A stretch of 64,000 bases of DNA from Rhodohalobacter sp. 614A (GCF_021462415.1 NZ_JAKEDS010000003.1:400743-464742), one strand, 5' to 3'; numbered from the stretch's first letter, positions 48,930 to 63,764 are shown. Numbers and translations: made by a program. Notes: generated by a model not told the origin, from the letters alone.

Positions 48930-49024
48930 GACATGGTATTTTTAGAAACTTTTAAACACGTCGAACTGGTAATTTATTCAACTGTGATACTTTACTCAGA
49001 GGCATTTCAAGAAAATACCATGTC
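48930..49024. repeat. 13-bp perfect inverted repeat framing 69 bases
   Basis: GACATGGTATTTT at 48930-48942 and its exact complement AAAATACCATGTC at 49012-49024. It lies between the SDR gene and the convergent caspase gene. Possible terminator, MITE or cruciform. Confidence 0.7.
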
Positions 49025-49045
49025 TACCGTATAAACGCCAAAGTT

Positions 49046-49978
49046 TTACACCTCAACAGGAGTATGAATCCATCCCTCAAGGAAATTCTCTCCCATTCGG
49101 TTTCTCTGGCCAAACAATTGCGGCGTTTGAGTTACGCCCGGCCGGGTTGGATGAATGATCGTATTGATTTTATCAGCCACGCTGTCACTCAAATCCTGCA
49201 TAAAATCATGGTAAGTAATTTGTGTGTTGCCCTGATTCACAGAATCAAGAATGGCCTGTGTGAATAATCCGTGCGAAATCGCGCTGCTTTCCCATGATAA
49301 TTCATTGAAATGACAGGCCGAAAGCAGTGTCGATTTTGTGGCCGCTACCAGCGTTTTATTGGGATCGGGATCGAGATCAATCGTGCCGTGTTCCTCGTGT
49401 ACATTTGCAACATTATCAGCATACTGGCTGACCGCCTCCACACAAACTCCACAGGGAATTAGTGTATTCAAAAAACTGACGATCGCTTCTAAAAGATCCG
49501 CTGCAAAAATGGGCGTGCGGCATTTCAAAGCGGAATCGGCCGTGTGAAGTCCGCCGGAGTGGCATGCATCGGTAATGATTGTGAAGTTTATTGCATCGGG
49601 ATAAAGATCTTCGGTAATTCTTAACAAATCCCTGTCTGTAATCCACGCACCGGATGCCGGTACCAGCGCTTCATAATAGCTGTCGCAATCGGCCTGAGAA
49701 AGGTCGGTCCGCACACGTGATCCATGGCCGGAAAAGTAAAAACAGATGGTATCCCCGGTTTCGGAAATTCTCACCAAATGGCGGAGGGTTGACAGAATAT
49801 TATTTCTGCTGGCATTGAGATCTTCCAGATGATAAATCTGTGTAAACCCGAAAGCATCTTCCAGCAAATAGTAAATGCTTCGCGCATCATTCACACAGGC
49901 GTTTAGATTTGTTCTCCCGGTGGGATCCAAAATGGAATAGTTGTTTACTCCGACAGTTAAAGCTCGTTTTGTTGCCAT
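49046..49978 (-). CDS. caspase-family (C14) protease, second of a pair
   Basis: I chose the ATG at 49978 (310 residues); the longer frame overlaps the end of the previous gene. Caspase-fold marks: KRALTVGVNNYSI, CVNDARSIYYLLEDAFGF, DTICFYFSGHGSRV with His85, and TIITDACHSGGLHT with Cys139. The catalytic dyad is intact. Bacterial C14 proteases typically cut after Arg/Lys or other set residues and act in cell-death or proteolytic cascades. It shares the operon with six large beta-repeat proteins and another caspase 13 bases upstream. No signal peptide. Confidence 0.9.
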   Translation of the reverse strand: MATKRALTVGVNNYSILDPTGRTNLNACVNDARSIYYLLEDAFGFTQIYHLEDLNASRNNILSTLRHLVRISETGDTICFYFSGHGSRVRTDLSQADCDSYYEALVPASGAWITDRDLLRITEDLYPDAINFTIITDACHSGGLHTADSALKCRTPIFAADLLEAIVSFLNTLIPCGVCVEAVSQYADNVANVHEEHGTIDLDPDPNKTLVAATKSTLLSACHFNELSWESSAISHGLFTQAILDSVNQGNTQITYHDFMQDLSDSVADKINTIIHPTRPGVTQTPQLFGQRNRMGENFLEGWIHTPVEV

Positions 49979-49991
49979 GATTTTTTTCTTT

Positions 49992-50921
49992 TTAAGCAAT
50001 TGAGGTTGTCCATTCTTCGAGGAAGATGTGATCCATTCGCGCCTGTTGACCGCGAAGGGTTGGATTTTGTGCACCGCCCGAAAAATTAACGACGCGTGTC
50101 ACCAGTTCATTAATCAGTTCGTTATAGCTAATACGAAAATTACCACTGTTTACAAGGTCAATAAATGCCTTTGTCAGGTATCCGTGGCCTTTTACGGAAT
50201 CCTCCAGGGCAACTTCATAATACTTGCAAGCGGCGATGAGGGTTGCCTGTGCCGAATCCACAAAAACTTTATTGGGATCTTCATCCAAATCTACCAGAAC
50301 CCTATTCTCGATCTGAGGGTTACTAACATTCGGAAAAAGTTCATTGGTACCTTCCGGCAAACAAATTCCGAATGGCCACATTTCCTGAAGATGATGGATA
50401 ATATCTATCACGCCATCACTAAAGGGAACGGTTCGTGGGATCGCATTGTCAATAGAATCTGTGGGATGCATTCCGCCTGAATGACAGGAATCAATGAAGC
50501 AGGTAAAATTTACTTCATTGGGATCAAACCCGGCATTTTGGGCTGTTTGATGGAGCCGGAAATCGTAAATCCAGTCTCCCTGATAAGGAATAATGGCTTG
50601 GTAAAACCGGGTATTATCTTCGGCCGTGGTTGCGGGTAGTAATCCGCCATGCCCGGAAAAAGTAAAACAAACCGTATCTCCAGCTTCTGTTTGAGAAAAT
50701 AAGTACGTGAGTGCACTTAAAATATTCCGGCGTGTTGCATTACTGTTTTTCAGAAGAATCACGTGATCTGCCGGGAAACCAAATGCCTGGGTTAACAGGT
50801 GGTACATACTATCCGCATCTGCCGCACAAAAGCTTAAATTCGGCCAAACCAAACCAGCGGGTTGATGTTGACTTTGGATGGAATAATCATTTACTCCAAC
50901 TACGAGTGCATATTTTGCCAT
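49992..50921 (-). CDS. caspase-family (C14) protease, first of a pair
   Basis: The 309 residues start KYALVVGVNDYSI; CAADADSMYHLLTQAFGF, DTVCFTFSGHGGLL with His91, and TCFIDSCHSGGMHP with Cys146 follow. Both dyad residues are present. The C-terminal third (DPNKVFVDSAQATLIAACKYYEVALEDS) is shared with its neighbour, so the pair arose by duplication and has diverged. It starts 11 bases after the 742-residue beta-repeat gene. Confidence 0.9.
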   Translation of the reverse strand: MAKYALVVGVNDYSIQSQHQPAGLVWPNLSFCAADADSMYHLLTQAFGFPADHVILLKNSNATRRNILSALTYLFSQTEAGDTVCFTFSGHGGLLPATTAEDNTRFYQAIIPYQGDWIYDFRLHQTAQNAGFDPNEVNFTCFIDSCHSGGMHPTDSIDNAIPRTVPFSDGVIDIIHHLQEMWPFGICLPEGTNELFPNVSNPQIENRVLVDLDEDPNKVFVDSAQATLIAACKYYEVALEDSVKGHGYLTKAFIDLVNSGNFRISYNELINELVTRVVNFSGGAQNPTLRGQQARMDHIFLEEWTTSIA

Positions 50922-50932
50922 AATCTTATTTT

Positions 50933-53161
50933 TTAGTTTAGTGCAATTCCGATGAGAGTTTCTTTCGTTTCTACAGGTTCTTGCCTGTTTAAACTGTTAT
51001 CCATACCGACCGTGGTTAACCGGTAGCTGTATTCGCCTTTGGTGTCATCAACAATGTTTAAACCGAATGAGACTGAATCGGTAACTGATCCATTCAGCTT
51101 CAATCTCTCTTTCACTTCATAATCATTGTCGGCGTCTTCATACTCGATATCGATAAAAACCATTTTCACCAGTTCCGGCTGGAACAGAGGAATGAACTCG
51201 ATATTGATCGTTTTTAACGGATTCGGGACAGAAATACGAGTGGTTTTGGTTGTGACCGGTTCGGTCTCTCGAACATTTCCATCTTTCATCTGGTATTTGA
51301 TGGAGTAGGAGAATGATTTATTTTCAATATCTGAGGACCGAATTTTCCAGTGCTGATCTTCAACCGCACCTTCGGAGAAAAAGAGCGTATCCGATTGTGA
51401 CCAGCCGTCTTTTGATTCATAATCCAGATGGATCTCCACATCAGAAACCTGGGTCCAGTCTATATTGGAAGCCGACACCACCACATCCAGGAATACCAAC
51501 GAATCGAACGGATGTAAAAGCAGCGTCCGGTCCTCGGTCATTTTCTCATCAAATTCGTAGCTCATCTGATCACCTTTCCAATCCGAATCGGGATCGAAAT
51601 GGTATTGCACCGAATAGCTGTATTTGTTGATGCCCGGAATGGTCTTCACGAGCCAGTCCGTCTTCTCAGGACTATCTTTGTCGATCACAAAATCTTTGTG
51701 CTTTTTATCAGGATCACCATCCTCGCCATATCTTAACTCCACATGTGCCGAAGACAACCCTATCGCTTCTTTCTCGAATGGAGTTTCTACAGAAACCCTG
51801 AATTCCCTGAAGAACGGATCATCACCATCCACTTCAAAAAAGTGACCTTCTTTAGCCAAATCTTCAGCCAGCAAGCCAAAGAAACCTTGTGGCGCATAGG
51901 TCCGCTGGACAGCTTCAGATCTGGTAAATTTGAAAGTGAGTGTTTTCTCTTCAATTTGTTTGATGAGTTTCAGTTTGAAAGAGACAAGAGCCGTATCCAC
52001 CTGTACATTCGCGGGATTCGGCATGGTTTGAGGGCGAACGCCGGTACTTTCAGGTGTTGTTGTCTGTTGAGTTTGTGGCGGCATGGCTGTTGCTGTTTCG
52101 GCGGCGTTTCCGGCATCGCCTTCAGTTACGGGCGGATTTTGAATGGCAGCTCTCGATTCGGGAGCACCCGTATTTTCATCCGGACGAGGTCGTTCAGGTC
52201 GTGTTTCTTCTGTCGAAGGAGAACCTCCTCCTGAAGCTGATGGGCGTTCAGGACGTGGCGGCGGAGTTGGCGCCGGCGGACGCATGGCCTGTGCGCGCCG
52301 TTGAACAGCATCTAAACCTTCTGCCTGAGCCATTCCCCCTGCCATTTGCCCCGGTGTTAATGTTGGCCTGAACCACTCACCCAAAAGATTCTCTTTAAAG
52401 AAATTCAAAGCCCAGTTTTCTTTGTCCATTCGGTCATCTTCTGTGGAATAATTGATTACGTTGATTTCGATCACTTTATCTTCCACGAGCTTCTCGAAAC
52501 CGGCATCAATTCCTGCGCGGACAAAATAAACCTGTCCCTCAAGGCCAGCGCTAAAATGATCGTACACGCGTTTGAGATTTGCCTTGATTTCCACTTCCAG
52601 CGCCGGACGAAGCCCGGAATATTTCAGGTTGTAAACAGCGCCGATGGGAGTTCCTTTCTCTTTGAAAACACTCTCCAGAATGGTGGCACCCTCCTGGCTG
52701 AGCGAAAGACTAAATGCCGCATTGTTATTTCCGTGAAGGGATGGAACCGTAGCACCGAGAATTTTTTCCACGGCTTGAAATGTCCCTTCTGCAGAAACCT
52801 GGGCCGTTGTGCCTCCTCCACCTTGTAAATCAAGAGCGATACATTCTACGGTTCCTTCATCAAACGGAACGGCCGCCAGTTTGGGCTGACCTTTTGCCAT
52901 TGATGAAATTCGAGACATGATTTTTCTTTCTACATCGGGATCGAGCTTGAGATCTACCTCAAACATGAGAAAACCCCGTCCCTCAATACTGTCTCCGGAG
53001 ACATTCCCATATTTGATAAAAGTGAATGATGCGCGATTATCTCTCGCCCTTCTGCCCAGTTGAACTGGGCCCGGCAGATACCAAAACTGGCTCGGATCCG
53101 CGTGATCCGAAAAGACGGTCACGCCATCTACTGTGATTGTTTTGCTTCCTATTTCTAACAT
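50933..53161 (-). CDS. large beta-repeat protein (742 aa) with Pro/Arg linker
   Basis: Domain order: 1-285 N-terminal domain (ITVDGVTVFSDHADPSQFWYLP, GRGFLMFEVDL, PSLHGNN at 140-146, GTPIGAVYNLKYSGL), 290-388 low-complexity linker rich in Pro, Arg, Thr, then a middle domain with TYAPQG near 422-426, and three C-terminal FnIII/Ig-like repeats of about 95 residues (VELRYGEDGDPD; IHLDYESKDG; IDIEYEDADNDY). No signal peptide or membrane helix. No known family. The linker is a candidate cut site for the neighbouring caspases. It is the last of six related genes before the caspases. Confidence 0.85.
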   Translation of the reverse strand: MLEIGSKTITVDGVTVFSDHADPSQFWYLPGPVQLGRRARDNRASFTFIKYGNVSGDSIEGRGFLMFEVDLKLDPDVERKIMSRISSMAKGQPKLAAVPFDEGTVECIALDLQGGGGTTAQVSAEGTFQAVEKILGATVPSLHGNNNAAFSLSLSQEGATILESVFKEKGTPIGAVYNLKYSGLRPALEVEIKANLKRVYDHFSAGLEGQVYFVRAGIDAGFEKLVEDKVIEINVINYSTEDDRMDKENWALNFFKENLLGEWFRPTLTPGQMAGGMAQAEGLDAVQRRAQAMRPPAPTPPPRPERPSASGGGSPSTEETRPERPRPDENTGAPESRAAIQNPPVTEGDAGNAAETATAMPPQTQQTTTPESTGVRPQTMPNPANVQVDTALVSFKLKLIKQIEEKTLTFKFTRSEAVQRTYAPQGFFGLLAEDLAKEGHFFEVDGDDPFFREFRVSVETPFEKEAIGLSSAHVELRYGEDGDPDKKHKDFVIDKDSPEKTDWLVKTIPGINKYSYSVQYHFDPDSDWKGDQMSYEFDEKMTEDRTLLLHPFDSLVFLDVVVSASNIDWTQVSDVEIHLDYESKDGWSQSDTLFFSEGAVEDQHWKIRSSDIENKSFSYSIKYQMKDGNVRETEPVTTKTTRISVPNPLKTINIEFIPLFQPELVKMVFIDIEYEDADNDYEVKERLKLNGSVTDSVSFGLNIVDDTKGEYSYRLTTVGMDNSLNRQEPVETKETLIGIALN

Positions 53162-53184
53162 GATTTTTTTATTTAGGTGATGAA

Positions 53185-55470
53185 CTAATTGACCGAAAGT
53201 TTTAGCTCGCTTTCGTTGGATCGTATCCAGTCGGTTGTCCTTTTCAGGCCGTTTTCATGATGCATCGTCAGTTGATGCTCAAATCCGCCGTTTTGATCAT
53301 CTGCAAAATCGTACTCGAAATACCGGATGCGATCTTCGGGTGATGCAAAACTGTACGCATCGCTGAAGGAGAGTCCTGCTTCGGTTTCCTCATATTTCAG
53401 AAGAAGTTTTGCCTCCCTGATTTTCTTTGCATCAAAAGGAATTCCGGACGGATCAATCGTCACAACTTTGTGTCCGCGCATTTGCGGAGTCAGGAATATT
53501 CGATCGGCAAGCGTCTGACAAGTTGGAATTTCCAGGATCCGGCCATCCGCAAAAATCATGGTCACTTTGTATTGCATGATTCTTTTTTCCGGATCTTTGA
53601 ACTGTTTCAGAACAATTTCTTTCGGTTCACTGCTTGTCTGGCTGAACATTGCCGAATGCTCTTCCCGAACATCGTTTTCAGGATCTTCATAGGATACATC
53701 CACAAAGATATTTTTCACCTCTTCCCAGTTCACCGCCGGTACCAGCGTCAGTTTTCGCTTCCTTGGGTATGGGTCACGAATGGTAATTTTCTCCTCATTC
53801 GTATCCGCCCACGGCATTTCAATATCCCGGTGATCAGCCGCACGATAAATCAGCTTATAACTGAAAGTGGTTTTTCCCGGATCAAGGGTGAACATCTTCC
53901 AGATCGCTTCAGTATTTTCTGCATTCAACAGAAAATGATCGTCTGAATGAATGCCGTTTTCAGCATCTTCATATTTGAGAGAGACTTCCACATTCGGATA
54001 CATCTCCCACGGAAAATCCAACGCCACAATCGCTACCGGAACCGATCCATAAAGATCTCTCGGGCGAATTTCCACATTCTCCACTTCCACGATTTCCGCT
54101 TCTGAGGTCAGTTTCGTTGGCCTCTCCATACTGTCCGCTTCCTTGAAATGGACATCGTACTTTACCGAAACAGGACGAATCATCTCGCCATTTTCGAGTT
54201 TACTCAGCCATTGAATCTGATCTTCAGTTTTGGTCTTGTCGAGTACTGTGTTTTTGCTCTCCCCGCCGTAATCCAATGTCACATTTACCGACTCTACATT
54301 GTCGGTATCAAAGTCGGTTCGGGCAATCACGTTGACCAATCGTTTCTGGAACCATGGATGATCCAGCTCTACCGGAATCACAAATCGTGAAAGGTCAACA
54401 TCATCACTGCGAAGTACGCTGAACAGGCCTTCAAGATGTCCCTGCGGATAGATGCTACGAACCACAGCCGTCCTCTCCGACATGCTCACATCCAGCTTTT
54501 TCTTGTCGATACGTGTGATATCCACTTTTTTGTAGCTGAACAGCCTCTGTTCTGAAGCGCCACCACTGAGAATCATAGTCGCCACACGACCGGCATCGCT
54601 GATGGTATCACTTCCCGATGGCGGAATTGGCTGAAGAGATGGCTCAAAGAAGTTATCCAGAACCATATCCTTTACTTGATTCACGGCTTGATCCATCCGG
54701 GCCTCCATAGCGGCTGTGCTGTCATCAGAAACAAACAGTTTATCCACCTGCATATCAATGACCTGGGTTTCGATCAGTTCATCCACAATTTCATCCACAG
54801 ACGAACTGAAGATCGGTGTATTGATATTGAACGATTCCTCAAGATGATGCTGAACACGCTCCCAGTCAGCTTTCACTTTTACCTTGTAGCCGTTTCTCAA
54901 CGCAAGATAATCTAAAGAATAGACCACACCGATGGGCGACATTTCCCCCTGAATGGCCTGCTCAACGACTACAACGCCGGCTTCATCCAGCTTCACTGAA
55001 AAGGATGCCTGGTTCGTACCATACAAAGCCGGTTTTGCGTAGTGAGACATCTTTACGACAAACTCTGGGCCCGAAGTCGGGATAACGGAATCATCCGAAT
55101 CGGATTCCTCATCCCCGGCCTGGGTTTCTTTTCCAAGCATCATCAGTTTTACGTACCCATCCAGCAGGGGGACCGGTGCGAGTCGCGGTTCATCATCCAG
55201 GTCATTTGCAGACCGGATTTGTGCCCGGATTTCAGCAAGTTTGTCATCATCAATTCCAAGATTTACATCGAAATTGAGAAAACCTCCGCTGCCGGCTTCT
55301 CCCCGATATTTAATCAGCTGAATCTGCGGGATCTCCAACCCGGTCTCCTCATCCGTCTTTACAGTCAGATGAGGATACAGCGGCATGTAATAGTATTGAA
55401 GCGGATCTTCATGATCGCCAAACACCGAAATGCCATCGAAAATATTAAAAGGTGGTTCTAAGTATAACAT
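53185..55470 (-). CDS. large beta-repeat protein (761 aa)
   Basis: The N-terminal domain starts FNIFDGISVFGDHEDPLQYYYMPLYP and continues SGGFLNFDVNLGIDDD, PALYGTN at 147-153 and SPIGVVYSLDYLAL. A middle helical stretch (MDQAVNQVKDMVLDNFFEP) leads to the PQG motif at 342-344. Four repeats follow, each with a DxxYE/LDYGG-like strand, a W near the centre and a Y.Y..Y strand (VSLKYEDAENG, VDVSYEDPENDV, LLLKYEETEAG). No signal, membrane helix or catalytic motif. 6 bases after the 737-residue gene. Confidence 0.85.
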   Translation of the reverse strand: MLYLEPPFNIFDGISVFGDHEDPLQYYYMPLYPHLTVKTDEETGLEIPQIQLIKYRGEAGSGGFLNFDVNLGIDDDKLAEIRAQIRSANDLDDEPRLAPVPLLDGYVKLMMLGKETQAGDEESDSDDSVIPTSGPEFVVKMSHYAKPALYGTNQASFSVKLDEAGVVVVEQAIQGEMSPIGVVYSLDYLALRNGYKVKVKADWERVQHHLEESFNINTPIFSSSVDEIVDELIETQVIDMQVDKLFVSDDSTAAMEARMDQAVNQVKDMVLDNFFEPSLQPIPPSGSDTISDAGRVATMILSGGASEQRLFSYKKVDITRIDKKKLDVSMSERTAVVRSIYPQGHLEGLFSVLRSDDVDLSRFVIPVELDHPWFQKRLVNVIARTDFDTDNVESVNVTLDYGGESKNTVLDKTKTEDQIQWLSKLENGEMIRPVSVKYDVHFKEADSMERPTKLTSEAEIVEVENVEIRPRDLYGSVPVAIVALDFPWEMYPNVEVSLKYEDAENGIHSDDHFLLNAENTEAIWKMFTLDPGKTTFSYKLIYRAADHRDIEMPWADTNEEKITIRDPYPRKRKLTLVPAVNWEEVKNIFVDVSYEDPENDVREEHSAMFSQTSSEPKEIVLKQFKDPEKRIMQYKVTMIFADGRILEIPTCQTLADRIFLTPQMRGHKVVTIDPSGIPFDAKKIREAKLLLKYEETEAGLSFSDAYSFASPEDRIRYFEYDFADDQNGGFEHQLTMHHENGLKRTTDWIRSNESELKLSVN

Positions 55471-55476
55471 GGCGAT

Positions 55477-57690
55477 TTAGTTTGAAGGTGCTTCGAGGAA
55501 AAGAGTCAGGTCATCCGTTGAAACGGGATCGGTATTCACACGGGTGCCATCCGCCATGAAATAGGTAGCTTTCCAGCTATATTCCGTTTTGGTTTTGTCT
55601 TTCAGTTTCAGCATCCATTTACCGGGCTCAAGGGCACCCGCTTTGAACGTGAAATCTTCTCTCTCGTGCACGTCATTATCCTGATCGACATATTCGAGTT
55701 CTACATGTGCCAGTTTTATGGTATTTGTGAAATCAAGCAGGTCAGCCATAATGGTGATATCCAGAAGATTCTCAACATTCTCGCCGACAATTACCGTGGT
55801 TGCATCTGTGATTTTTTCCTTGATCTCTTCTTCCGTTCCATCTTTTCGGACAATGATTCCTTTATAGGTGATGGAATTCACCGCCTTGTCGATCATCGGG
55901 ATAAACCAATCGAAGAATGGATTGTCTTTTGAAAGTGCGATGGATTTGGTAACCACGTAATCGTTGGCCGTATCTTCATATTTTGCATCGATAAAGATGT
56001 TTGCAATCTCGGTTTCAAGATCGCCGGAGGCACGGAATCCAACGGTTTTGCTTTGCGTAAACGGATCGTTAATAAACAACCGGTTTGCATTGCCTTCCAT
56101 CCAGTCCGTTTCGTACTCCTTGCCGTCTTCCATTTTGTAATTCACTTTGTAACGATACGGCTTGGAGCGCTTGCTGAAGATGATATGCTCAAACTTGTGC
56201 TCAGTCGCTTCAGCACTCATAATGAATTGATCCGTGATCTTGTCCACACCATTGGAACCGTCTTCATATTCCATCGTGATTTGAGCCTGTTTCACCTGCT
56301 CAAAATCAATATCACCGGGTGTGATGGAGACATACAGAATTCCAACGTCGTCCACATTCACAGTTAACACAGATTCATTCGTTTCAATCTCTTCGGATTG
56401 AAAGATCTTGCTTGCTCCTTTGTAATTCACCTGGTAGCTGTAGTGGTAGTTGAAATCATCATCTTCAATAAACGTGGCAAACCGGGCTACATCATCCGCA
56501 CTGCTAAATTGGTATTCTCCGTTTACTTCGCTTCCGATCACATCCATCGGCTCACCTTTGTAAAACAGTTTTACTTCCACACTGTGAATCGGAAGTTCCT
56601 CGAATGGCGCATTCACTTTAACTGTGGCATTAATCTGTTTGAAGAACGGATCATCCAGATCCACTTCCTGGGCATAATCTTCCCATTTGATCTGATTTCC
56701 CTCTTTGTCTTTCAACGTGGTAATATTCGGAATCACACCCTGCGGATTGATATTCACTTCCACGTAGGCATGTTCAGTATATCTCAGAGTAAAAGTGGAA
56801 ATACTGGATCGGACAACTTCTTTGCGAACATCTTCAATGTCATGTTCCTGGTACCATTTGCGCGCATCCTCGGGGTTTTCAACGGGCAGTGCTTCGATCA
56901 TTAAACGTTCGGCGGCATCGTCAAGAGCGCCCTGGGCCCATGTCCGAATCTGATCAACCACTTTGGGTTCAATCTGGGCACTGCCCGGATCAATAACAAG
57001 ATTTCTTGACTCGGATCTTCGCATCATTTCGGAAAGAGTTTCCTTGTAATCATCTTCCGCACAGGCTCTCTCTTCAACATCAATTTCCTGGATGAAACTG
57101 TAAAATGCACTGGCACGGAATGTTGCCCAAACTTTCAGAGGCGGGAGTTTGGCATCGTGATAGAGTTCATACATCACACTCACAAATCCCCCTTTACCTT
57201 GGAGTGCCTGTTCAAAAAATGTAGCGCCTTCCGGACTCAGCTCAATGCTGTATGTTGCAATATTCTTTCCATAAAGTGATGGCTTCCCGGCATCCAAAAT
57301 ACGTTCGACTAATACGCTGTCTTCATCGCTGATCATCAGCCGGGACGTTCCTTTTGTATAACGGACAGAAGCCATCTCAACTTCAGGCGCCGGAGAAATA
57401 TTTCTTCTCTGGGCAATTCGGTTTACCTCTTCCTGAAGTTGTTCTTTGATCCGCGCCATCTTATCATCGGGCACGGTAAATTCCACATCGAATACCACAT
57501 AACCCCCGCCTTTTTTTCCATCGGGACGATCAATGGGTAATCGATACTTTAAAAATTTAAAAATGGGTTTTCCTTCATCATCCACCCGAAACCTGGGCTG
57601 TTCTGGTATCGGATAAAAGCGATAAAACTTCTTATCATCTCCGTAAATAACTACGTTTTCTATTTCTCTTTGATTATTGATGTATAACAT
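55477..57690 (-). CDS. large beta-repeat protein (737 aa)
   Basis: The N-terminal domain starts IENVVIYGDDKKFYRFYPIPEQPRF, with GGGYVVFDVEFTVPDDK, PSLYGKN at 137-143 and GFVSVMYELYHD. INPQG is at 314-318. Four FnIII/Ig-like repeats end the protein (VKLFYKGEPM, ITMEYEDGSNG, DAKYEDTANDY, VELEYVDQDNDV). No transmembrane segment. The three large proteins align across their full length apart from a linker and one repeat. The start codon is ATG at 57690, 28 bases after the 278-residue gene. Confidence 0.85.
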   Translation of the reverse strand: MLYINNQREIENVVIYGDDKKFYRFYPIPEQPRFRVDDEGKPIFKFLKYRLPIDRPDGKKGGGYVVFDVEFTVPDDKMARIKEQLQEEVNRIAQRRNISPAPEVEMASVRYTKGTSRLMISDEDSVLVERILDAGKPSLYGKNIATYSIELSPEGATFFEQALQGKGGFVSVMYELYHDAKLPPLKVWATFRASAFYSFIQEIDVEERACAEDDYKETLSEMMRRSESRNLVIDPGSAQIEPKVVDQIRTWAQGALDDAAERLMIEALPVENPEDARKWYQEHDIEDVRKEVVRSSISTFTLRYTEHAYVEVNINPQGVIPNITTLKDKEGNQIKWEDYAQEVDLDDPFFKQINATVKVNAPFEELPIHSVEVKLFYKGEPMDVIGSEVNGEYQFSSADDVARFATFIEDDDFNYHYSYQVNYKGASKIFQSEEIETNESVLTVNVDDVGILYVSITPGDIDFEQVKQAQITMEYEDGSNGVDKITDQFIMSAEATEHKFEHIIFSKRSKPYRYKVNYKMEDGKEYETDWMEGNANRLFINDPFTQSKTVGFRASGDLETEIANIFIDAKYEDTANDYVVTKSIALSKDNPFFDWFIPMIDKAVNSITYKGIIVRKDGTEEEIKEKITDATTVIVGENVENLLDITIMADLLDFTNTIKLAHVELEYVDQDNDVHEREDFTFKAGALEPGKWMLKLKDKTKTEYSWKATYFMADGTRVNTDPVSTDDLTLFLEAPSN

Positions 57691-57728
57691 GGCGTTAGGG
57701 GTTAGTGTGTTGTGATTGTTAGTTGATA
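57691..57728. repeat. heptad array at the gene junction
   Basis: GTTAGGG, GTTAGTG, TGTTGTG, ATTGTTA, GTTGATA in 7-base register from 57694, overlapping the end of the 278-residue gene and reaching within 3 bases of the next gene's ATG on the minus strand. Confidence 0.55.
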
Positions 57729-58555
57729 ATTTTTATGTATTCACTTGAATTATTTTTAAACCAGGTGCTGATATCGGTTGAAGCGACAAACTTTTCCGTG
57801 ATTTGAAAAGTCTCTTTCATCTCAACTTCAAAGTTTGAACTGTCTGCAGAGATATTCTCTTGTTTTAGATATCTCTCAATTTCTTCCGATGTTTTCTCTA
57901 TCAATTTTTGATGCACTTCGCGAATCATCTCTTCATCGACGTTCTCATCAAAATTCATTGTAATCTCAAATACTCCCTCGTCGATCTGACGCTCTATCCA
58001 TTCACCAATTTCGGTTTGGGAACTCTCACCTGAGAGCAGATCCCGAACGTGGTGTATCGTCCCAGTCAATTTCATTTCAACCGGAATATCTTTGCCTAAA
58101 AGTGCATGATATCTTACCAAGAGAGTCTCATTCCTTCCGTTGAATGCCGCAACCGCATCTTTCTGAAGCTCTTCGGACAACATTGTGTTAAAAGCTGCAG
58201 TGTAGGGATAGAGTCCTGACGATCCGGAGGTGGCAAGAATCCGTTCTTCAGTCGGCGTTTTAAGAACCAATTCCACCTTTTCGATCTGCATAGGAGCCGG
58301 TTTCAAATCCATTGAGGATGAAATGAGCTCTTTTTCGATTAAAAATTTTGACAGCTTTTCAACTTTCTCAGAGGGCGCACTCCACTTGGCGCTTGCCTGA
58401 AAAAACCATTGCGGCCCCGCCCCAATCAGGGAAATCACCGGATCGCCATTTGAATCCGTTTGAGGCATCGCCGTTGCAGGGATGTAATAGTAACTTTTCG
58501 GGTTTGTGGAATTGGGATAATAAATCAGATCCTCAAAGTTCAGTTGCTCTCTCAT
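57719..58555 (-). CDS. short beta-repeat-family protein (278 aa), N-terminal domain only
   Basis: It starts NFEDLIYYPNSTNPKSYYYIPATAMPQTDSNGDPVISLIGAG and contains GLYPYTAAFNTMLSEELQKDAV and LLVRYHALLGKDIPVEMK, matching the N-terminal domain of the three large neighbours (the GLY-x-YTAAF strand corresponds to PSLYGKNIATYSI). The C-terminal tandem repeats are absent; an acidic, helix-rich tail (ENVDEEMIREVHQKLIEKTSEEIERYL) takes their place. It overlaps the upstream gene by 4 bases (ATGA). Confidence 0.8.
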   Translation of the reverse strand: MREQLNFEDLIYYPNSTNPKSYYYIPATAMPQTDSNGDPVISLIGAGPQWFFQASAKWSAPSEKVEKLSKFLIEKELISSSMDLKPAPMQIEKVELVLKTPTEERILATSGSSGLYPYTAAFNTMLSEELQKDAVAAFNGRNETLLVRYHALLGKDIPVEMKLTGTIHHVRDLLSGESSQTEIGEWIERQIDEGVFEITMNFDENVDEEMIREVHQKLIEKTSEEIERYLKQENISADSSNFEVEMKETFQITEKFVASTDISTWFKNNSSEYIKIIN

Positions 58556-60363
58556 ATTGGCTCCTGTTGATATTCTATGTTGAGTTCGTTTATAAATGGG
58601 GATTGTATTTCCGACCAGACAGCATCAGCCTCTCCATGAAATCTGTACCGAAAACCGGCTTTAAAAACAGAAGGCGAAAACCAACTCCAATTTGCCTCTG
58701 GTTTGGTATGGTTAAACGCGATTGTGGTGATGTTGGAGGGAGACGGTTCAAGATGTGCCGGTAAGAAATCTACTCCTACAGTTCTGCCTTCCGGCGTCTC
58801 AAAATGAATGGTAACCTGATGAGAGCCATATTCCCTGAAGGAGGATAAATCAATCTTATAATCTGACAGTACAGGGATGGAGGTTGTAACGACTTCTTCT
58901 GTTAAATGATCTTTTGCTGCAATTTTACACATGAATTCAGACACATCGCCCTCCGGCAATGCGATCATGGTTGACGGACGATTCCTGTTCAAAACAACCG
59001 GTTCAAAAAGAGCTTGCTCCGGCGAACCTTTACATACCACAAGTGTAAGTGAAGCCTGGGAAAGTATATTCGCTGAACAGGTAAATGAAATAAACCTGAA
59101 TGGGAATTCCTGTTGTTCGATAACAAGCTCACCAGTGCGTACGTCCCTTTGTTCTCCCAATATTTCTTTTGTGCCTTCCTGATCTCCATAAATTGCAAAT
59201 GGAGTTACCTGATACCATGGTTCTTCACTTGATGAAAATTGTAGCATCGCCGATTTTTTCCCTTGTCCGCTGTCGAAGACAACTGTTTTATGAATGGCCT
59301 GGGACCGTAACGGTGGATTCGGAGGAGCAGACAATTTGATCCCCACCTGCCGGATTCCTACAGGTATCTGGAAGAATGGATGAAAAACTTCGATACGTAG
59401 AAATCCGGTGGGGACGGGTTCAACAACAGTGGTGGTAAACAGTTCATCAACACTCTTTTCTTTGAGTAATCGGCGGGCGGCCTCTAAAGCATCAAAAGTA
59501 AAATGAACAAATCGTTCCGCAACAAGCGGCTCAGACAAATTCCACGTAAAACTCCCTCCCGTTTTGGCATCGTCATTTAATGCGAGCATCACCTCATCGT
59601 CATTGACAAGAGGCGGTTTGATGATACAGAAACGATTGGTGTACCAATCCGTCAAAACGATGGGTATAAGATTTTGGTCTGATTCGTCTTGGAACTCAAC
59701 CTCAAAAGGAAGCTCATCAAATGGTTTCTCAAAAAACTCCTGAATTGACGAATACGGAATCCCATCCTCAGCCGAATCTACATCAGCGAGCAACGCTTTT
59801 GTAAGTTCTTCCGGATTGAAGGAGATTTGCACCGGAATTCCCGGAGAGTATCCTTTTACTGAAAACAGGCCGTACGCTTTCAAAAGTATGAGTTCTTTAT
59901 GCAACGCTTCTTTCACCAACTTCAGGTAATCCATACTCACACGGCGAACAAATCTCAGCCTCGATAATGGTAAATTTGTAAGCTGAACCGGTTCTTCAAG
60001 CTCATCAGATATGTTTTCGCCGTCATTGGCAATCAGGCTTAATCCAAGAAATCCGGAACTAAAATCAGGAGTAAAGACGGCAGCTTCCGGCCATCTACTG
60101 CGAATTGAATCCATCATCTCTTGTCCGAGGTCCGCCGGTGATAGCTGAATTTCGAACAATCCATACGGCTTTGGTTTGCTGAAAGGAGTAATTCCGCGGA
60201 TGGCTTCAAATCGAAACGCCGGATTGTTATTCAATTCAACAGACGAATGAATATCAAGATGTTCCGGCACTACACATATCTCATCCTCCTTACCCATCAC
60301 CGGGCAGGCAAAATATTCGGGTTCCGCTAAAAGATTAGAAAAATCTAATAGACGATTACGCAT
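58552..60363 (-). CDS. beta-repeat-family protein (603 aa)
   Basis: It starts MRNRLLDFSNLLAEPEYFACP with PYGLFEIQLSPADLGQEMMDSIRSRWPE, the counterpart of the GGxLxFDVxL strand in the other members. Middle strands (GFLRIEVFHPFFQIPVGIRQVGIKLS) and a closing domain (FHFETPEGRTVGVDFLPAH-like) are beta-rich. The repeats are degenerate. The 4-base overlap with the 278-residue gene suggests translational coupling. No known fold or motif. Confidence 0.72.
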   Translation of the reverse strand: MRNRLLDFSNLLAEPEYFACPVMGKEDEICVVPEHLDIHSSVELNNNPAFRFEAIRGITPFSKPKPYGLFEIQLSPADLGQEMMDSIRSRWPEAAVFTPDFSSGFLGLSLIANDGENISDELEEPVQLTNLPLSRLRFVRRVSMDYLKLVKEALHKELILLKAYGLFSVKGYSPGIPVQISFNPEELTKALLADVDSAEDGIPYSSIQEFFEKPFDELPFEVEFQDESDQNLIPIVLTDWYTNRFCIIKPPLVNDDEVMLALNDDAKTGGSFTWNLSEPLVAERFVHFTFDALEAARRLLKEKSVDELFTTTVVEPVPTGFLRIEVFHPFFQIPVGIRQVGIKLSAPPNPPLRSQAIHKTVVFDSGQGKKSAMLQFSSSEEPWYQVTPFAIYGDQEGTKEILGEQRDVRTGELVIEQQEFPFRFISFTCSANILSQASLTLVVCKGSPEQALFEPVVLNRNRPSTMIALPEGDVSEFMCKIAAKDHLTEEVVTTSIPVLSDYKIDLSSFREYGSHQVTIHFETPEGRTVGVDFLPAHLEPSPSNITTIAFNHTKPEANWSWFSPSVFKAGFRYRFHGEADAVWSEIQSPFINELNIEYQQEPI

Positions 60364-60393
60364 TCGTATCCTGACTTTTTCTCTATCGTTTTT

Positions 60394-63057
60394 TTAAATA
60401 GGCAGTAAAGAACTTGTTATCTCGAGGCTTCCCGCCTTGTTTTGCCAAGCTCCAATGACCGGGGCAGACCCGGCACTATCTCCTGAACCATCCGTTTTCT
60501 TGATCAAAATAATCCGGAACCAGTATTGACCGCTGCTTTCTGATCCGAGAATAAAGTCTTTAATCGGAAGTGGAAGGTTGACCTGTTTCTCTACTATTTC
60601 TGTTTCTGTGTCCTGAAAATCAGTACCTGTAAAAATCAATTCTTCTATCAAGGGGCCATTTTCAGCATTCTTGAATTCAATCTTCAGCAACCGGATTTCC
60701 GAGTCGTTTGAGATTGGAGCAATAAAAAGGCTCACCTTCACCGTTGACTCATAAGTTGCCTGAACGGTAGTGTCCACAATTGCATCAAACAGTTGTCCCT
60801 TATCCGGTTCCGTTTTCAATCCCCGCCAATTAAATGAGAGGTCGGATAACTCATATGGCCCGACATCCTCAGAAGCAATCGCATCAAATGAGAAAGATTC
60901 ACCTGGCGGAACTATAATCGGAATCGACAAATTTTTGATAATCAGAGGCACTTCTCTCTCTCCTGATTCAACAAATCCATTCACTCCATCCAGTTTAATT
61001 GTACTTTCCAGAAGGTTGGTCACAACAATGGTATCGCCTTCTCCCATTTGCTGATTGACGATTGAAAACGATCCTGCCGTATTCGACACACTTCCGTCAT
61101 CATTGTGCTGTTGCATGCCCTCCCAGGTTAAGGCAACAATGGCCTCTTCCGGTTTCTCAATCTCCACATCCGGAATCACGCTGAATGTTATGGATTCACC
61201 TGAAGCAAGTTTTAGTGGAAGTTGAATACCGGCTTTTGAACCGGTAAATGTGTTTTCTCCGTCCTGGATGGTGACAACCACCCCCTGTGCCGAGAGTGTC
61301 CGCGATGTAACATTTTTAACTTCAAGCTGAAAATTGGAATTCTTGGCATTATCAACAGCCAGCATTTCTACATCTGGCTGGCCAAGACGAATGGAAACGG
61401 GAATAGATGGAATGGAAATTCCCGGCAAGGTGACTTCAACATGTCCTGTTAAAATATTGGAGACAGACGAATCCTTAATCACCGTATCAAAGACCGATTC
61501 AAATGCTTCGAGAGAAATTGGAGGAAGTGTATCCTGGATATTCTCAAGAGTTACAAGGCTTTCCTCCCGCGATTTGAAACCTGACGCCTCCGGCAGAAAA
61601 AGTTTATACTCAAGCTGTTCACCAGACAATACCAACGGGCTGAATGTAATCTCTTTCTCCTCTACATCTTCGTGATTTTTTAACTGAGCAAGAGCCGTTT
61701 CTAAACGTTCTGAATCGGTAAAAGCCTCCAGTTGATAGCTGATTTCTGCCGTCAAATCATCTAGCGTTCGTCCGGCCATTTTCACATGAAATTTTGGAGA
61801 AAAAGGCGGAGACTCTTCCTTGGCAAGCCGAAAGCTGTCCGGCAGGTAAAGAAATTTCTTTGGATTTACTTCCTCCTGCAAATAGATATGTTCGCTCTCA
61901 TCATTGTCCCATTGAATGCGAAAGGGTTTATATCCGCCCGCAACAAGATCCCGGTCTCCCGTATTGCGATAGATGTATGGATGTTGTGATTCTTTGAAAT
62001 GAAAAGGCTGATTCTGTTTCAACGTTTGAGTGGACACAGAATAAATTTTTTCACCCGGTTTCAGTGGAGATGAATTCGGATTTCCCTGAAGGTTAACCTT
62101 ATTGGAAACAAACTTTTTGTTGGTTTTCCTGTCCCACAAAACTACATAACAAGTTGCGGGAAGCGGTTGACCGGCCCGTCTTGCAAATGAAAAGTTTTGA
62201 AGGTTCTCGTTCTTTCCAAATCCGCAATATCCGTACAGTTTCTGCCCCTCATCATCAAAAATATCCACCCAGGTACGCGATGCCCTGGTATTTCGGCCAC
62301 AAGGTGGCAATTCCGGAGAAGCACTAAAAAGGCCGTCCGAAAAGGCATCCCAGTTTCTGATCGACAAGTGTATCCTTGTAAAATTTGTACCCCGAATATT
62401 TGTGTTCTCTTTCTTTGTAAAATGAAGAACCGGTTTGGGATCTGCCGTATTTTTGCCGGCCCCGGAATACATGGGTGTGGCTACAGAAACCGTTCTTGCA
62501 ATTTCCATCCTGCACCCATATTCGCTGTCGGATATTGCTGCACAAACCTGGCTGAATTCATTGAATGTTGAGACTCTCAGTGTTGCATCAAATCCATGTT
62601 CCGTATTTAAAACTTCTGTAAAAGGTAATTTCTTTTCGATGCTTGTTCCGGGCACTGTAAACAGCAAACTGATCGCGGTTTTGTGGTCCATCGGAAGAGC
62701 ACCATTCAGACGGTTCTTGAGTTCTTCAGGCGGAATCGTTTTTAATAAAACATTCAGAGAACCGCCTTCGCCATCCGTTGCTTCTTCTAGTTCAATTCGA
62801 AGCTGTTGATTACCGGAAATTCGATGGACTTCAAAATCATACTGGGGTATATAAAGTTTTTTTGACGGGTTGGTATGATCGTTAAAAAGAATGGAATCAC
62901 TGACTTTAGCAACATCTGCATATGGAACCTTAAGATCGGATTGTGCAGTCCCTTGCATGGTTAAAACCTTCGCGCGAAGAAGATTCGTATTTAACTTCAA
63001 AAACTTTTTTGTAGCTGAAGTATTAAGAGTCTTTCCCGCAAATCTGGTTGTTAACAT
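60394..63057 (-). CDS. large beta-repeat-family protein (887 aa), first gene of operon
   Basis: A basic N-terminal extension (TKKFLKLNTNLLRAKVL) precedes the family domain (VAKVSDSILFNDHTNPSKKLYIPQYDFEV; GEGGSLNVLLKTIP). The central part (HLSIRNWDAFSDGLFSASPELPPCGRN) and a long C-terminal beta-sandwich series (SFSVIPDVEIEKPEEAIVALTWEGM; FNWRGLKTEPDKGQLFDAIVDTTVQATYEST) follow. No signal peptide despite the basic start. The family-typical PSL-GN strand is replaced. First gene after the promoter at 63104-63130. Confidence 0.75.
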   Translation of the reverse strand: MLTTRFAGKTLNTSATKKFLKLNTNLLRAKVLTMQGTAQSDLKVPYADVAKVSDSILFNDHTNPSKKLYIPQYDFEVHRISGNQQLRIELEEATDGEGGSLNVLLKTIPPEELKNRLNGALPMDHKTAISLLFTVPGTSIEKKLPFTEVLNTEHGFDATLRVSTFNEFSQVCAAISDSEYGCRMEIARTVSVATPMYSGAGKNTADPKPVLHFTKKENTNIRGTNFTRIHLSIRNWDAFSDGLFSASPELPPCGRNTRASRTWVDIFDDEGQKLYGYCGFGKNENLQNFSFARRAGQPLPATCYVVLWDRKTNKKFVSNKVNLQGNPNSSPLKPGEKIYSVSTQTLKQNQPFHFKESQHPYIYRNTGDRDLVAGGYKPFRIQWDNDESEHIYLQEEVNPKKFLYLPDSFRLAKEESPPFSPKFHVKMAGRTLDDLTAEISYQLEAFTDSERLETALAQLKNHEDVEEKEITFSPLVLSGEQLEYKLFLPEASGFKSREESLVTLENIQDTLPPISLEAFESVFDTVIKDSSVSNILTGHVEVTLPGISIPSIPVSIRLGQPDVEMLAVDNAKNSNFQLEVKNVTSRTLSAQGVVVTIQDGENTFTGSKAGIQLPLKLASGESITFSVIPDVEIEKPEEAIVALTWEGMQQHNDDGSVSNTAGSFSIVNQQMGEGDTIVVTNLLESTIKLDGVNGFVESGEREVPLIIKNLSIPIIVPPGESFSFDAIASEDVGPYELSDLSFNWRGLKTEPDKGQLFDAIVDTTVQATYESTVKVSLFIAPISNDSEIRLLKIEFKNAENGPLIEELIFTGTDFQDTETEIVEKQVNLPLPIKDFILGSESSGQYWFRIILIKKTDGSGDSAGSAPVIGAWQNKAGSLEITSSLLPI

Positions 63058-63103
63058 AGAGACACCAATCCCTTAGTGGTTTTTTGATATTCCAATTCCA
63101 AGC

Positions 63104-63130
63104 TTTATATGGCGATTTTTAAGAAGTCAA
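63104..63130 (-). promoter_or_regulatory. candidate promoter of the beta-repeat/caspase operon
   Basis: On the minus strand TTGACT (63130-63125) and TATAAA (63109-63104) are separated by 15 bases, 47 bases before the ATG. The spacing is shorter than the ideal 17, so this is only a proposal. Confidence 0.35.
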
Positions 63131-63764
63131 TGAATGGGATGCCAACTTCACCGAAGTGCTGAAAGCTAAATATTGCCCAACTCCGGAATAAGAGTTTTGG
63201 GCCTGCTATACCTGTATTAACCTACCTCAAGCTAAATCAATACTTTCTTTATTTTTTAATCGCCTTTATTCTCTTAATCTCTTAAGAAGGCTGGCTGCAA
63301 TCCTTGATTTTTTATTCAAAAATCTCTCAAAATTCGCCGGCAACTTCTTCACATTTAGCGGATTTTACCACTACTCCCATCAAGATTATTATTCTGAAGT
63401 TGTTGTGTGAAAAAGATGACGCCTTGAGTCGAATATATATATTCAGAGTTGCTTTGTCTACTTCTTTGTTAATTTTTTTTAATTTCCTTTTTGATGAGTA
63501 TTTCTCTTCTAACAGGCTCCCTGATACCTTGAAGAAAACTCTTCATATTTAATCTTAAAGAGATATTTCTCCATCCATTAAAATCAGTAACCTATTCGTA
63601 AACAAAGAGTTAAAGAAACAGTTTGATTTTGAAAAAATTGATCCAGACTAAAATTCTATCCATCAAACTTCTTCAAAAGAATCTATAGAATAGCATCAAC
63701 CGGAACGATTGAAAAAAGTTTTTTTATAAATGGAAAAAGATTCTGTGCTTGGAAATGCACGTTT
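63131..63764. other. 634-base intergenic stretch without a convincing gene
   Basis: AT-rich, no frame with family resemblance or a ribosome binding site. An 82-codon plus-strand frame (63304-63552) has no recognisable features and I leave it uncalled. It is long enough to hold an unrecognised regulatory region or small RNA, none of which can be shown. Confidence 0.35.

Follow-up and report, generated by a model that had tools for sequence, protein, structure and literature searches.

An operon of six beta-rich paralogs and two C14 caspases in Rhodohalobacter sp. 614A has relatives in several bacterial phyla

Results

A compact operon of eight genes

We analyzed an eight-gene operon in Rhodohalobacter sp. 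614A, located in a stretch of 64,000 nucleotides of its genome (GCF_021462415.1 NZ_JAKEDS010000003.1:400743-464742). This whole stretch is hereafter called the window, and positions are counted from its first letter. Eight open reading frames (ORFs), all on the minus strand, occupy about 14 kb at 49046-63057 and encode six beta-rich proteins, B1 to B6, followed at the operon's 3' end by two intact C14 caspases, C2 and then C1 (Table 1). By sequence comparison, B1-B6 belong to one paralogous family, the operon was imported into its host, and related operons elsewhere carry a caspase directly behind B6. We tentatively propose that B1-B6 form one assembly that the caspases switch on by cutting a linker in B6, a mechanism that we regard as plausible though somewhat short of an even chance.

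The original prediction described eight minus-strand genes separated by 6-30 bases with one 4-base overlap, and both the ORFs and the gaps were confirmed. Intergenic gaps measured 30 (B1/B2), 28 (B3/B4), 6 (B4/B5), 23 (B5/B6), 11 (B6/C2) and 13 (C2/C1) bases, and B2 and B3 share the operon's sole overlap. The eight-gene block is not a chance arrangement, because its flanks adjoin in two sister genomes and other phyla show the same gene order. In a hydropathy scan, which is a crude test, none of the eight proteins had a conspicuous signal peptide or membrane segment.

Table 1. Positions of the operon's genes, the segments of B6 and the inserted segment within the window (aa, amino acids; pLDDT, predicted local distance difference test).
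Feature	Position	Strand	Description
B1	60394..63057	-	887 aa; most divergent paralog; ORF
B2	58552..60363	-	603 aa; ORF; full-length profile match to B6
B3	57719..58555	-	278 aa; shared N-terminal domain alone, without C-terminal repeats
B4	55477..57690	-	737 aa; ORF; paralog of B5/B6
B5	53185..55470	-	761 aa; ORF; paralog of B4/B6
B6	50933..53161	-	742 aa; form with the short linker, immediately upstream of the caspases
B6 N-terminal domain, residues 1-271	52349..53161	-	Predicted structure
B6 disordered Pro-rich linker, residues 272-405	51947..52348	-	Low pLDDT; site of the OmpA-like insert in long-form relatives
Candidate caspase recognition/cleavage segment LDAVQRRAQAMRPP, B6 residues 283-296	52274..52315	-	[LM]RP[PA] motif
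B6 C-terminal beta-sandwich repeats, FnIII/Ig-like, residues 406-742	50936..51946	-	Predicted structure, fold matches
C2, C14 caspase	49992..50921	-	309 aa; H91/C146; Pfam PF00656
C1, C14 caspase	49046..49978	-	310 aa; H85/C139; Pfam PF00656
Inserted segment, outer limits	48946..63764	.	About 14.8 kb; flanking genes adjacent in sister genomes

B1-B6 are one family, new to the libraries searched

The six proteins had been described as large, leaderless and beta-rich. The hydropathy scan agreed with their being leaderless, and profile comparison refined the description to a single paralogous family in which B3 consists of one domain. This N-terminal domain is common to all six proteins, and FnIII/Ig-like repeats stand behind it in B4-B6. 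B4, B5 and B6 are mutually about 25-30% identical. Profile-profile comparison matched B3 with the N-terminal domain of B4 (probability 98.5, E 4e-15) and B2 with B6 along its whole length (probability 98.6, E 6e-16). B1 was linked more weakly, to B2 (E 2e-6), B3 (E 2e-4) and B4 (E 4e-4), and its orthologues occupy the operon's first position across phyla. B4 orthologues in other genomes reach 55% identity. An origin as six unrelated structural proteins was ruled out by the profile comparison.

The expectation that the six proteins lack a family of known function also stood. No Pfam, NCBIfam or PADLOC family scored above its cut-off for B1-B6, and PHROGs matches were all sub-threshold. B3 fell below the cut-offs for Tail_P2_I (phage tail protein I), with 17.8 versus 20.6 bits in Pfam and 15.9 versus 30.05 bits in NCBIfam, and B5 had a single sub-threshold CARF match in PADLOC (E 0.014). 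Profiles of B4 and B6 returned no relative among PDB sequences beyond one chance-level match. By these comparisons, none of the libraries searched describes the family.

The caspases are partners of the operon

Domain score and catalytic residues place C1 and C2 in the C14 family, confirming the prediction of two C14 proteases with intact His and Cys. Pfam PF00656 scored 84.9 bits for C1 (E 8.8e-24) and 69.9 bits for C2 (E 3.4e-19) relative to a cut-off of 21.4, with matches spanning residues 3-288 and 3-291 in caspases of 309-310 aa. Both catalytic pairs (Table 1) are intact and are invariant in 12 operon caspases. We placed the start of C1 at the ATG at 49978, not at the mechanically called GTG at 50074, giving a protein of 310 aa (MATKRALTVGVN); its homologues start likewise.

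In a phylogenetic tree whose comparison set was the host family's caspases only, the 12 operon caspases formed one clade (100/99 support) apart from ten host-family caspases, including the host's third. This third C14 gene of the same genome (G000:C2:689635-690291, L001) groups with a host-family caspase, not with the operon clade. Subgroups of operon caspases largely parallel the subgroups of B6. The window's caspases pair one-to-one with a Larkinella pair, implying that the tandem caspase duplication predates the transfer. The closest plasmid-borne caspase outside the operon is just 28% identical.

A neighbourhood survey found a caspase immediately 3' of B6 in ten further genomes, which belong to five named phyla (L016, L017, L038, L040 with two copies, L042, L043, L046, L048, L061, and L082 with two copies). 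Homologues of the six proteins thus co-occur with caspase genes elsewhere, as had been anticipated, and this repeated adjacency identifies the caspase as a partner of the operon.

The operon was acquired by horizontal transfer

Scanning GTDB species genomes with a B4-based alignment revealed 57 further loci with relatives, distributed over Bacillota, Actinomycetota, Pseudomonadota, Nitrospirota, Acidobacteriota, Cyanobacteriota and Bacteroidota, plus one archaeal bin. The full order B1-B2-B3-B4-B5-B6 was preserved in 17 loci, and a further 10 had it except for B3, which was not called there. The median intergenic gap was 14 bases. Carriers were rare around the host, amounting to 1 of 28 genomes of its genus (caspase profile) and 1 of 296 genomes of the phylum sample (B profile). 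The flanking genes are neighbours in sister genomes, where 82 bp between aligned blocks (G323) or about 1 kb (G199) replaces 48946-63764. This rarity together with the empty site ruled out vertical inheritance in the host lineage and marks the operon in Rhodohalobacter sp. 614A as an import within a 14.8-kb insertion. Given its distribution, the block apparently moved between very different bacteria as a unit.

The inserted segment contains no integrase or transposase genes and has a G+C content of 44.8%, compared with 41.7% on its left side. About 700 non-coding bases at 63058-63764, from B1 to the insertion's right edge, hold no recognised mobile element. A phage origin was unsupported, as relatives were absent from phage records and also from IMG/VR, which was covered by five pattern scans whose reach is limited by the choice of patterns. 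One contig of Cohnella faecalis (L053) looks as though fragments of this operon were arranged in inverted repeat, which may be an assembly artefact.

A linker motif in B6 accompanies the caspase

In the AlphaFold2 model of B6 (mean pLDDT 77), an alpha/beta domain at the N-terminus is joined by a disordered, Pro-rich linker to beta-sandwich repeats at the C-terminus. Residues 297-399 have pLDDT below 50, the C-terminal repeats are mostly above 90, and residues 1-280 modelled separately reached 89.2. The repeats resemble FnIII/Ig domains, with Foldseek E down to 2e-6 and VIA-align Z up to 7.4, which is under the caution line of Z 8 (root-mean-square deviation 2.4 over 77 residues). FnIII/Ig repeat proteins probably resemble this part of B6 in fold, but they include no PDB sequence relative and offer no counterpart to the N-terminal domain. 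The N-terminal model had no convincing PDB fold (best Foldseek E 0.04, best VIA-align Z 4.4), and a match missing from the Foldseek and VIA-align listings is no proof of a new fold.

Two forms of B6 occur. The linker is at most 207 aa long in one, as in the window, and in the other it measures at least 345 aa and contains an OmpA-like insert. One region of this insert weakly matches YiaD (E 0.05), PA0833 (E 0.14) and YfiB (E 0.2-0.3) in the PDB and has no Pfam match. A caspase stood behind the short-linker form in 8 of 27 cases and behind the long-linker form in 0 of 22. Where a locus has both forms (L038, L046 and L048), the caspase lies behind the short one, which bears the motif [LM]RP[PA]. 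This motif was present at the linker start in 8/8 caspase-adjacent B6 proteins versus 0/41 others, excluding it as a general feature of B6. Two caspase-adjacent B6 proteins checked later (L082 and L043) also carry it, for a total of 10/10. An extra carrier, L035, proved to be a false match from a looser search of raw residue windows, due to envelope offset.

A fixed paralog set, the position of the caspase behind B6, and a motif confined to caspase-adjacent B6 fit an assembly that is processed by caspases. Under this mechanism, the operon would be a horizontally transferred system whose core of six leaderless paralogs supplies distinct subunits of one cytosolic assembly. An exchangeable slot for effectors or processing would be filled, in this protease version, by the caspase pair. 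A trigger of unspecified nature would assemble or rearrange B1-B6 and activate the caspases, which would then cut B6 in the disordered linker near residues 283-296 (LDAVQRRAQAMRPP). Such a cut would detach the FnIII/Ig-like repeats from the N-terminal domain, so that the assembly would be switched or released. The outcome would probably be cell killing or envelope damage, which we favour because partners directed at the envelope (an OmpA-like insert, a lysozyme, a phospholipase and a pore former) recur among related loci. If this mechanism is true, the operon would represent a bacterial machine under caspase control that differs from gasdermin, Craspase and Canu. In any case, a protein family that lacked annotation can now be tied to a specific operon and a broad horizontal distribution, and to one concrete hypothesis on protease and substrate, namely the caspases and B6 residues 283-296.

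Several observations weigh against this mechanism. The majority of six-gene loci have no adjacent caspase, implying that the caspase is optional rather than essential to the core. The window operon encodes no clear killer such as a nuclease or gasdermin. Proteases cut Arg-Pro bonds poorly, such that [LM]RP[PA] may serve for docking, or the Arg upstream of it may be the point of cleavage. Some caspase-free B6 proteins also have the helix LDAVxxR, and the caspase-free B6 of L026 has LRPG. Furthermore, caspase and motif cluster on the B6 tree, where the trait needs only about three changes. Their association is therefore statistically non-independent and offers 1-3 independent contrasts, too few for significance.

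The operon differs from known caspase systems

At bacterial gasdermin loci and in type III-E Craspase, a caspase-like protease adjoins a partner whose cleavage is the output. The window operon shares with gasdermin loci the placement of such a protease beside a partner, but has no gasdermin match in Pfam or PADLOC. It differs from Craspase in that PADLOC recognised no gRAMP (Cas7-11), Cas or TPR/CHAT family in it, apart from the sub-threshold CARF match in B5. In the Klebsiella Canu system (CanABC; PMC12799240), the nuclease CanC contains disordered gating insertions and is activated by the caspase CanA, a precedent for a bacterial caspase acting on an operon partner as proposed above. Both systems are horizontally moved and combine Ig-like folds with a caspase encoded in an operon with a partner whose disordered insertions are proposed as targets. 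However, none of the eight window proteins matches a nuclease family in Pfam or NCBIfam, including the metallo-beta-lactamase type of Canu, and the six paralogs belong to another family. The window caspases, at about 310 aa, also consist of a C14 domain only and have no C-terminal Ig-like extension. The nearest NCBIfam model for C1 and C2 is that of the two-gene EACC1-caspase system (NF047832; PMC7159879), with which they share the C14 domain, but they score 39.8 and 31.3 relative to a cut-off of 140, and the window operon has no EACC1 membrane protein. Among the search results read from the open-access literature there was no description of the operon, subscription journals being outside the coverage.

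Gasdermin, Craspase and Canu (PMC12799240) are precedents for a sensor-effector defence system, in which the repeats of B1-B6 would sense infection or damage and activate the caspases to kill or arrest the cell via cellular targets, leaving B6 as a docking partner only. The patchy, horizontally moved distribution suits such a role, as does a version on a Paracoccus plasmid that stands beside trypsin-like, EAD1 and ATP-binding genes of conflict-system type (EAD families: PMC7159879). Nevertheless, PADLOC recognised the caspase domain only, which excluded a known defence system, the window neighbours are of housekeeping type with no defence gene recognised beside the operon, and the caspase is missing at most loci. 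We consider defence unlikely. The original prediction of a structural or sensor assembly processed by caspases is partly supported. A structural assembly of this kind fits the paralog set, the caspase's place and the linker motif, but nothing linked the operon directly to phage defence, and a caspase adjoins the six genes at a minority of loci only.

Other versions of the operon carry other partners

Related loci place other genes around the core. Besides the trypsin-like gene of Paracoccus, a subtilase lies upstream at L018, and such other proteases count in favour of the proposed mechanism. Rhizobial versions encode a protein of 588-618 aa with papain-like motifs by eye and no Pfam match. 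An exchangeable effector slot is a pattern in these gene neighbourhoods, not a rule, because each alternative partner comes from a single lineage. If true, effector exchange around a fixed six-paralog core would make the operon a modular platform. More broadly, B1-B6 might represent an undescribed class of heteromeric bacterial machine that has spread horizontally through many phyla. It would combine a novel N-terminal fold with a slot into which proteases, pore formers, a phospholipase, a lysozyme or prenylation enzymes can be plugged, and linker cleavage of one subunit would trigger the caspase version. We regard this generalization as possible but leaning toward doubtful.

Some partners would suit a lysis-released toxin particle, in which leaderless B1-B6 deliver or anchor cargo (pore formers, phospholipase, lysozyme, proteases) with a logic like that of Tc toxins or extracellular injection systems, and the caspases are cargo or maturation proteases. 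On Azospirillum lipoferum plasmid AZO_p5 (L007:10442-18246), three helical ORFs directly precede a B4-like gene, G7 and G8 (described below), and the middle one is a Pfam Bacillus_HBL protein (E 2e-12). The Paracoccus version includes a phospholipase D, L083 has a PG_binding_1 plus GH19-like (lysozyme-type) protein, long B6 has the OmpA-like insert, and no signal peptides were seen. However, genes for a sheath, tube or baseplate and RHS genes were not found, no fold was matched to the N-terminal domain, no such particle is known, and the phage records and the pattern scans of IMG/VR gave no relative. On balance, a particle seems improbable.

Two further genes, neither of them in the window, are G7, a DMATS-type prenyltransferase relative found in most loci and directly after B6 in many, and G8, found in some loci and next in order there. 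G7 matched bacterial DMATS prenyltransferases (E 3.5e-8 over residues 15-313) and retains the PVE glutamate and KxY, such that full-length homology with catalytic residues places it in this group. Alignment with aromatic prenyltransferases (6zrx, CymD) covers most of G7, but the Lys at the diphosphate site reads Glu. G8 contains the motif DADDT and weakly matches class II terpene cyclases (drimenol synthase, E 0.003). A prenylation system in which the B proteins are scaffold or substrate for these enzymes and the caspase a maturation protease is nonetheless improbable. Against it stand the altered diphosphate site, the weak G8 match, the absence of G7 and G8 beside the operons of the window, Larkinella, L082 and both Nocardioidaceae, and the lack of any G7 relative found in the host genome. 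What the prenyltransferase and the terpene-cyclase-like protein modify is a separate question. Together with the OmpA-like insert, lysozyme, phospholipase and HBL-type pore former, they form a wider context that was unforeseen in the original prediction and allows other functions.

The operons of the Cytophagales-type relatives L083 and L085 are variants that contain two genes each of the B4-like and B5-like kinds. They also encode a 360-aa protein whose GHGW...WGC pattern is reminiscent of clan CD peptidases and which has no Pfam match.
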